64,000 nt of DNA from Calliopum simillimum. Its lineage: Eukaryota > Arthropoda > Insecta > Diptera > Lauxaniidae. The stretch spans positions 2,790,001-2,854,000 of the forward strand of contig OX638369.1 in the NCBI GenBank assembly GCA_951812925.1, given 5' to 3'. Shown piece after piece: positions 50,655 to 50,701 of this stretch. A program made the translations under genes and the position numbers. The notes under the pieces were generated by a model, which was given only the letters and a program-made list of their open reading frames with translations, was not told where the DNA came from and did no database searches. The stretch's first letter is position 1. Each line of letters starts with the position of its first letter.

Positions 50655-50701
50655 ATAGTCTGATGAGTCTTTGTGGCGAAAGACGAAACATATGTCACTA
50701 T
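50655..50701 (+). ncRNA. Type I hammerhead ribozyme
   Basis: All core parts are present in order. Stem I 5' strand ATAGT (with A50655). CTGATGA at 50660-50666. Stem II GTCTTT/AAAGAC (six pairs) closed by loop GTGGCG (50667-50684). GAA at 50685-50687. Stem III from the self-complementary ACATATGT (50688-50695). The cleavage triplet is GTC (50694-50696), and the stem I 3' strand ACTAT (50697-50701) pairs perfectly with the 5' strand. The very short palindromic stem III is the form seen in Penelope-like elements and retrozymes, where cleavage works best in dimeric or tandem RNA. Predicted cleavage is between 50696 and 50697. Activity is untested. Confidence 0.9.

Follow-up and report, generated by a model that had tools for sequence, protein, structure and literature searches.

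The window (the whole 64 kb stretch of DNA that was analysed) holds two copies of a short repeated element, together with a copia-type and a gypsy-type retroelement, and the first of the two copies carries a hammerhead ribozyme motif. The features discussed below are listed with the basis of each call in brackets.

50655..50701, + strand: type I hammerhead ribozyme motif (letters read, descriptor scan, Rfam alignment and random-sequence test)
between 50696 and 50697, + strand: predicted self-cleavage site (place of GTC within the motif)
50152..50696, + strand: complete repeat unit (545 bases) delimited by two successive predicted cuts (self-comparison)
50697..~50827, + strand: incomplete second unit (identical to 50152-50282 at 128 of 131 bases)
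50131..50144: left copy of the 14-base flanking repeat ATTTATATTTTTTT (shuffled-flank test)
50824..50837: right copy of the 14-base flanking repeat (shuffled-flank test)
50145..50151: seven further bases, TTTTTTC, separating the left flanking repeat from the unit (of putative meaning)
50508..50518, + strand: box A-like TGGTGCAATGG, an element of type 2 Pol III promoters (exact to TRGYNNANNGG)
50551..50561, + strand: box B-like GGTTCGTCTCC (one mismatch to GGTTCRANNCC)
62709..63107, + strand: second copy of the element, matching 50212-50613 at 84% identity (self-comparison of the window)
63108..63994, strand not given: foldback (inverted-repeat) element interrupting the second copy (self-comparison)

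The copia-type neighbour is delimited by 176-base terminal repeats (43794-43969 and 49342-49517), and the ribozyme unit starts 634 bases past its end. A position of the ribozyme inside a copia LTR was ruled out, as the LTRs lie elsewhere; the 545-base unit is separate from the nearby copia element. Among 120 of 1220 matches to a copia fragment, the named organisms of highest identity were flies (Anastrepha 68%, Lucilia 65% and Stomoxys 63%), and those with the best E-values were the lepidopterans Arctia and Parnassius and the wasp Microplitis. All four organism-named matches to the gypsy-type gag were flies (Eurosta, Rhagoletis and two from Lucilia), and the host is likely a fly. Exact patterns found no relatives in viral_contigs or genome_contigs (0 in each), both of which are non-fly collections from which records close to the window's own genome are possibly absent. 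The preliminary description had placed the ribozyme in a fly retroelement; it proved to have a unit of its own and not to belong to the neighbouring copia element, and the fly host is likely rather than proven.

When re-read from the sequence, 50655-50701 agreed in every letter with that description: ATAGT CTGATGA GTCTTT-GTGGCG-AAAGAC GAA ACATATGT C ACTAT, in which ATAGT/ACTAT forms stem I, the core CTGATGA is followed later by GAA, GTCTTT/AAAGAC forms stem II with the loop GTGGCG, and GTC is the cleavage triplet. The claim that every conserved position of a type I hammerhead can be read was borne out, the conserved core being complete and accompanied by three helices, of which stem I is open as in type I. 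Stem III, previously called palindromic and minimal, is indeed of the minimal form; counted strictly, it consists of two pairs (A-U and C-G) and an AUAU loop (ATAT in DNA). The predicted cut, as far as its position is concerned, is likewise supported by the sequence. The bare core (CTGATGA, a gap of 8 to 30, GAAA) has a chance expectation of 1.36 per window and occurred at least once in 73 of 100 shuffles, so that the core alone proves nothing. A loose descriptor that required the helices matched the window at this single site and gave 2 matches per 40 Mb of strand-bases in matched random sequence, or about 0.006 per window. The strict anatomy (6-bp stem II, 5/5 in stem I), with CTGATGA given, was found at 0 of 3,000,000 random positions, by criteria that were chosen after the motif had been seen. 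The low chance previously asserted for the ordered core with both helices is in agreement with both figures.

No Rfam family reached its gathering score in a scan of the whole window. The type I model (RF00163), from which a significant hit had been sought as a check on the motif, could be aligned from end to end (model positions 1-45 of 45) to a segment of 53 bases, with 21.5 bits (E = 0.0013). This score is under the cut-off of 34 bits, which is the curators' threshold and no chemical requirement, and the E-value scaled from 53 bases to 64 kb is about 1.6 (our own scaling), so that the covariance model by itself is insufficient to make the case. The lack of a significant match had been named as a refutation of the motif, and the outcome of this check is intermediate, with a score under threshold and an alignment along the whole model. 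A match to the type III model (RF00008; 22.7 bits on 1 kb) was rejected as a misfit that stops before the last two letters of GTC. For the isolated 47-base motif, a decoy fold (-6.7 kcal/mol) was better than the hammerhead fold (-4.0) by 2.7 kcal/mol, and in a context of 94 bases the corresponding values were -9.4 and -6.7. Folding permitted an outer stem I interrupted by an internal loop, which would bear on contacts between loop I and loop II. In the RNA dimer fold the two stretches of ACAUAUGU, a self-complementary sequence, pair with each other; a double-hammerhead fold was rejected, as the remainder of the dimer fold is not a hammerhead.

Self-comparison showed that 50150-50282 recurs at 50695-50827 with a spacing of 545 bases, and the insert thus comprises 1.24 units with one hammerhead at a single site, that is, tandem units bounded by a type I hammerhead. 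At its right end, the partial second unit shares bases 50824-50827 with the beginning of the right flanking repeat. Before the unit, the left flank reads ATTTATA, thirteen T and one C, and after it the right flank reads ATTTATA, seven T and GC. A shared word as long as 14 bases was seen in 1 of 2000 shuffled flank pairs, and the 14-base direct repeat is likely a target-site duplication (TSD). The additional TTTTTTC on the left may consist of non-templated or slippage bases or, on the - strand, of a G plus a short poly(A), and its last C is also compatible with the C of GTC. The left boundary of the insertion consequently lies at most one base from the predicted cleavage site, so close as a randomly placed boundary on a 545-base unit would fall in only about 0.5% of cases (about 1 in 200, by our own arithmetic). 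This coincidence suggests that the RNA likely cuts itself before it is copied back into DNA, in an argument that rests on one insertion, the sole complete one read. Independent support for the motif also comes from the start of the repeat unit, at most one base away from the predicted cut. On these grounds the motif is confirmed, at the level of sequence, as a complete type I hammerhead that exceeds chance expectation, and self-cleavage is predicted.

The opposite reading is very improbable. It takes the motif as decayed or fortuitous and without ribozyme function, and the element as an ordinary tRNA-type SINE whose tandem duplication took place at the DNA level. The Rfam score under threshold, the bare core expected at random and the slightly favoured decoy fold would all be in keeping with it, but it has to contend with helices that are intact at the low chance frequency given above, with a unit boundary that coincides with the cut site, and with the 14-base flanking repeat.

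The left junction also has to be considered from the other strand. There it reads ...GGCAATAGTG-A13, the adjoining flanking repeat starts with A7, and an ATTAAA lies upstream at 50171, as would be the case if a polyadenylated opposite-strand RNA had been inserted by an L1-like LINE, with a target TTTT-3' priming on the poly(A) and the hammerhead playing no role in the left end. We regard such an antisense origin as rather unlikely, since the hammerhead and the box A- and box B-like sequences are on the + strand, the coincidence of the left end with the hammerhead cut would be left unexplained, and the same ATTAAA at 50716 would need to be read through. The AATAAA near the right end on the + strand (50814) also speaks against it, if weakly, as the + strand holds seven such hexamers. 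Together with the short T-run after it, this AATAAA occupies unit position 118-132 (50814-50827 and 50269-50283), where the right end of the insertion falls, and the combination resembles the tail signal of some SINEs. No A-tail is present at the insertion's right end, and AATAAA-type hexamers are common on the + strand. A Pol III terminator is not put forward as the cause of the right end: this end does coincide with a T4 of the unit (50280), but the other T4/T5 runs would need read-through.

The unit has a GC content of 31% and no ATG, GTG or TTG frame of at least 60 aa, the longest frame that overlaps the element being 59 aa. Its predicted fold has -122.1 kcal/mol against a shuffle mean of -91.1 (z -5.54; 0 of 100 shuffles as good), and with its long TSD the apparently non-coding, GC-poor and, by prediction, highly self-paired RNA has the properties of an animal non-LTR retrozyme. 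Like the Penelope-like elements (PLEs), the insertion combines a minimal hammerhead with a partial-tandem structure and an AT-rich target: PLEs are described as bearing type I hammerheads of the minimal kind inside pseudo-LTRs arranged in partial tandem, and one active PLE as favouring AT-rich targets with ATT (PMC11167929, PMC6155905). The repeats could then be the pseudo-LTRs of a PLE without its ORF, the unit being a fragment of it or a satellite derivative. This is quite unlikely, because the unit, unlike PLEs, lacks a frame of the size of RT/GIY-YIG (no ORF with RT and GIY-YIG was found, and even 60 aa are not attained), contains Pol III-type boxes, and has, by eye, no AC-rich stretch at its right end. 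The 131-base terminal direct repeats around an internal part would also suit a miniature LTR retrotransposon (TRIM, for example Helenus) with 131-base LTRs. That reading is mostly refuted and scarcely credible, as inspection by eye found neither TG start and CA end in the repeats, nor a TGG primer site just past the left repeat, nor a polypurine tract just before the right one; the flanking repeat has 14 bases versus the 4-6 bp TSD of LTR retrotransposons and TRIMs, and the tRNA-like part lies outside the repeats, unlike in Helenus as described (PMC10886601).

In type 2 Pol III promoters, box A has the consensus TRGYNNANNGG and box B the consensus GGTTCRANNCC. Both boxes of the first copy are on the ribozyme strand, 32 bases apart, and in the second copy box A (63001) and box B (63045) are both exact to the patterns used; an internal box A plus box B, as in tRNA-derived SINEs, is accordingly found in both copies (in the first with the one mismatch in box B). 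Box pairs of that quality occurred 0 times in 4 Mb of random sequence (one strand), with patterns that were written down after the copies had been seen, and 24 pairs occurred in 4 Mb when one mismatch was allowed per box. A tRNA fold could not be recognised: Rfam tRNA gave no match at either copy at E up to 10, and ARAGORN gave matches only at a relaxed threshold, which are uninformative because about a third of the shuffles matched likewise (62 of 200 and 66 of 200). A real tRNA gene was ruled out. Between box B and the hammerhead there are a T4 (50586) and a T5 (50601), and the second copy has T5 and T5 there. Runs of T4 or T5 are expected to terminate Pol III, so that transcription from these boxes may stop upstream of the hammerhead. 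The multi-unit RNA may then come from outside read-through, as PMC7761336 supposes for retrozymes. A further box A/box B pair on the - strand (38250/38187, with a gap of 52) lies beside a 205-bp tandem repeat (38595-39015) that carries GAGTTCGAACCC, and the two probably belong to a separate tRNA-type SINE.

The second copy lacks a counterpart of the unit's first ~60 bases, and an alignment of these 60 bases upstream of 62709 was ruled out, since 1263 of 2000 shuffles aligned equally well; the start of this copy thus differs from the cut site. The foldback element, a set of nested inverted and direct repeats, was apparently inserted at a TA dinucleotide within the second copy. The last six letters of the window, TAATTA, are compatible with a TA duplication and the unit resuming, which, resting on six letters, is suggestive only. 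The ribozyme part of the second copy, if present, would lie beyond 64000.

The sequence itself shows the 545-base unit, bounded at both ends by the predicted cut, the incomplete second unit after it, the 14-base repeat and the boxes. The explanation that we favour, and consider fairly probable, is that the hammerhead serves to process the transcripts of a small non-LTR element, apparently non-coding, SINE-like and retrozyme-like, that likely moves by way of RNA. A multi-unit source copy would be transcribed, via its own Pol III-type boxes or by outside read-through, and the hammerhead would cut the transcript at GTC/ACTAT, giving a 5'-OH end at ACTAT. Some RNAs would retain one uncut hammerhead and hence be longer than one unit, and monomers may be circularised by a host ligase. 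A reverse transcriptase from another element (LINE or Penelope-like) would be primed on target DNA rich in AT, close to unit position 128-131, and would copy leftwards through the uncut hammerhead and the whole unit until it stopped at the self-cleaved 5' end, the outcome being 1.24 units between 14-base target duplications. An insert of 1.24 units with its left end at the cut site points to a linear template of more than one unit in which one hammerhead was uncut, and the published model of rolling around a circle (PMC7761336) would explain the length of the insert, not its exact left end. The uncut RNA is an assumption that gains no special support here, because a two-pair stem III with a tetraloop is called 'similar to invertebrate HHRs' in PMC7229834, and those are mostly efficient cleavers. 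In the same source, an axolotl hammerhead of this stem III type reached 22% cleavage within one hour as a monomer and more as a dimer; its helix II is noted to be weaker. Counted against a retrozyme were the Rfam score below gathering, the decoy folds, the T-runs downstream of the boxes, the missing tRNA match, the T-run on the left, the length of 545 bases, the start of the second copy and the one box statistic that tolerates mismatches (24 pairs in 4 Mb).

That animal tandem repeats contain type I hammerheads, that such repeats have been named non-LTR retrozymes, and that insects are among their hosts, is well known (PMC7229834, in which retrozyme-like repeats in insects are mentioned in passing); what is unusual here is the length of the unit, the Pol III-type boxes and the fly host. 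Animal non-LTR retrozymes are described as tandem type I hammerhead repeats with low GC and stable RNA folds, and with TSDs longer than the 4 bp of plants (PMC7229834, PMC4918200), those of Nematostella repeats being 15 bp (PMC4918200). The fly element resembles them (Cervera and de la Pena 2020) in its hammerhead per unit, tandem units, lack of a detected coding frame, low GC, long TSD and strong self-pairing, and differs in its unit of 545 nt versus 170-400 nt, which is a reported range and no definition (PMC7229834). According to a 2020 review (PMC7761336), plant and animal retrozymes seem to be without promoters and without a motif betraying the helper element; the fly unit, unlike those covered there, has internal Pol III-type boxes, and for a plant retrozyme a promoter is reported in the LTR (PMC9695139, PMC12029980). 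The pDo500 satellite of Dolichopoda cave crickets is likewise an insect repeat of approximately 500 bp, with a 49-base hammerhead in single or double form, and is abundant (~5% of one genome); in contrast to the fly unit, the main text of its description (PMC2837043) never uses the words tRNA, promoter or polymerase. In dipteran genomes, type III hammerheads have been reported (PMC7936874).

The closest known analogue appears to be the schistosome Sm-alpha. Sm-alpha and Sj-alpha are described as short SINE-like repeats with a tRNA-related region plus a type I hammerhead (PMC2770079, PMC8490949), and a full tRNA-Gln is named in schistosome repeats (PMC4918200). Going by these descriptions, the fly element is like them in combining a tRNA-type region and a type I hammerhead within a short repeat; it is unlike them in belonging to a different phylum, in its 545-base unit and in a tRNA resemblance confined to box A and box B, with no Rfam tRNA match. 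In the literature found, the combination of a tRNA-type region and a hammerhead is otherwise known among animals from schistosomes, and no tRNA-box-bearing hammerhead element was found described in flies, in a literature coverage that is thin for subscription papers. A fly lineage of SINE-retrozyme hybrids, with an internal Pol III promoter plus a hammerhead in each unit and, as its template, a linear RNA of more than one unit whose 5' end was made by the ribozyme, rather than the closed circle that is assumed for retrozymes, is a possibility that we put forward tentatively and with considerable doubt. If further copies bear this insertion out, its readable flanks, its left end at the predicted cut and its Pol III-type boxes would allow a fly to be used for studying how transcription of animal retrozymes takes place and in which form their RNA is reverse transcribed. 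The preliminary interpretation as a whole is partly supported.

The gypsy-type element elsewhere in the window has features of its own. Its gag ORF (30269-31843, - strand) starts with a RING-H2 finger (PF13639, E = 1.2e-11) that is fused to Retrotrans_gag/Ty3_capsid, and among the relatives of this gag that have precomputed RING plus gag domains, some were named as Lucilia, Rhagoletis and Eurosta. The element is flanked by a direct repeat of 3157 bases (23672-26828 and 32647-35803; 99.9% identical), in the manner of unusually long LTRs, with GTTT at both outer sides (by eye), and it is probably a recent insertion.
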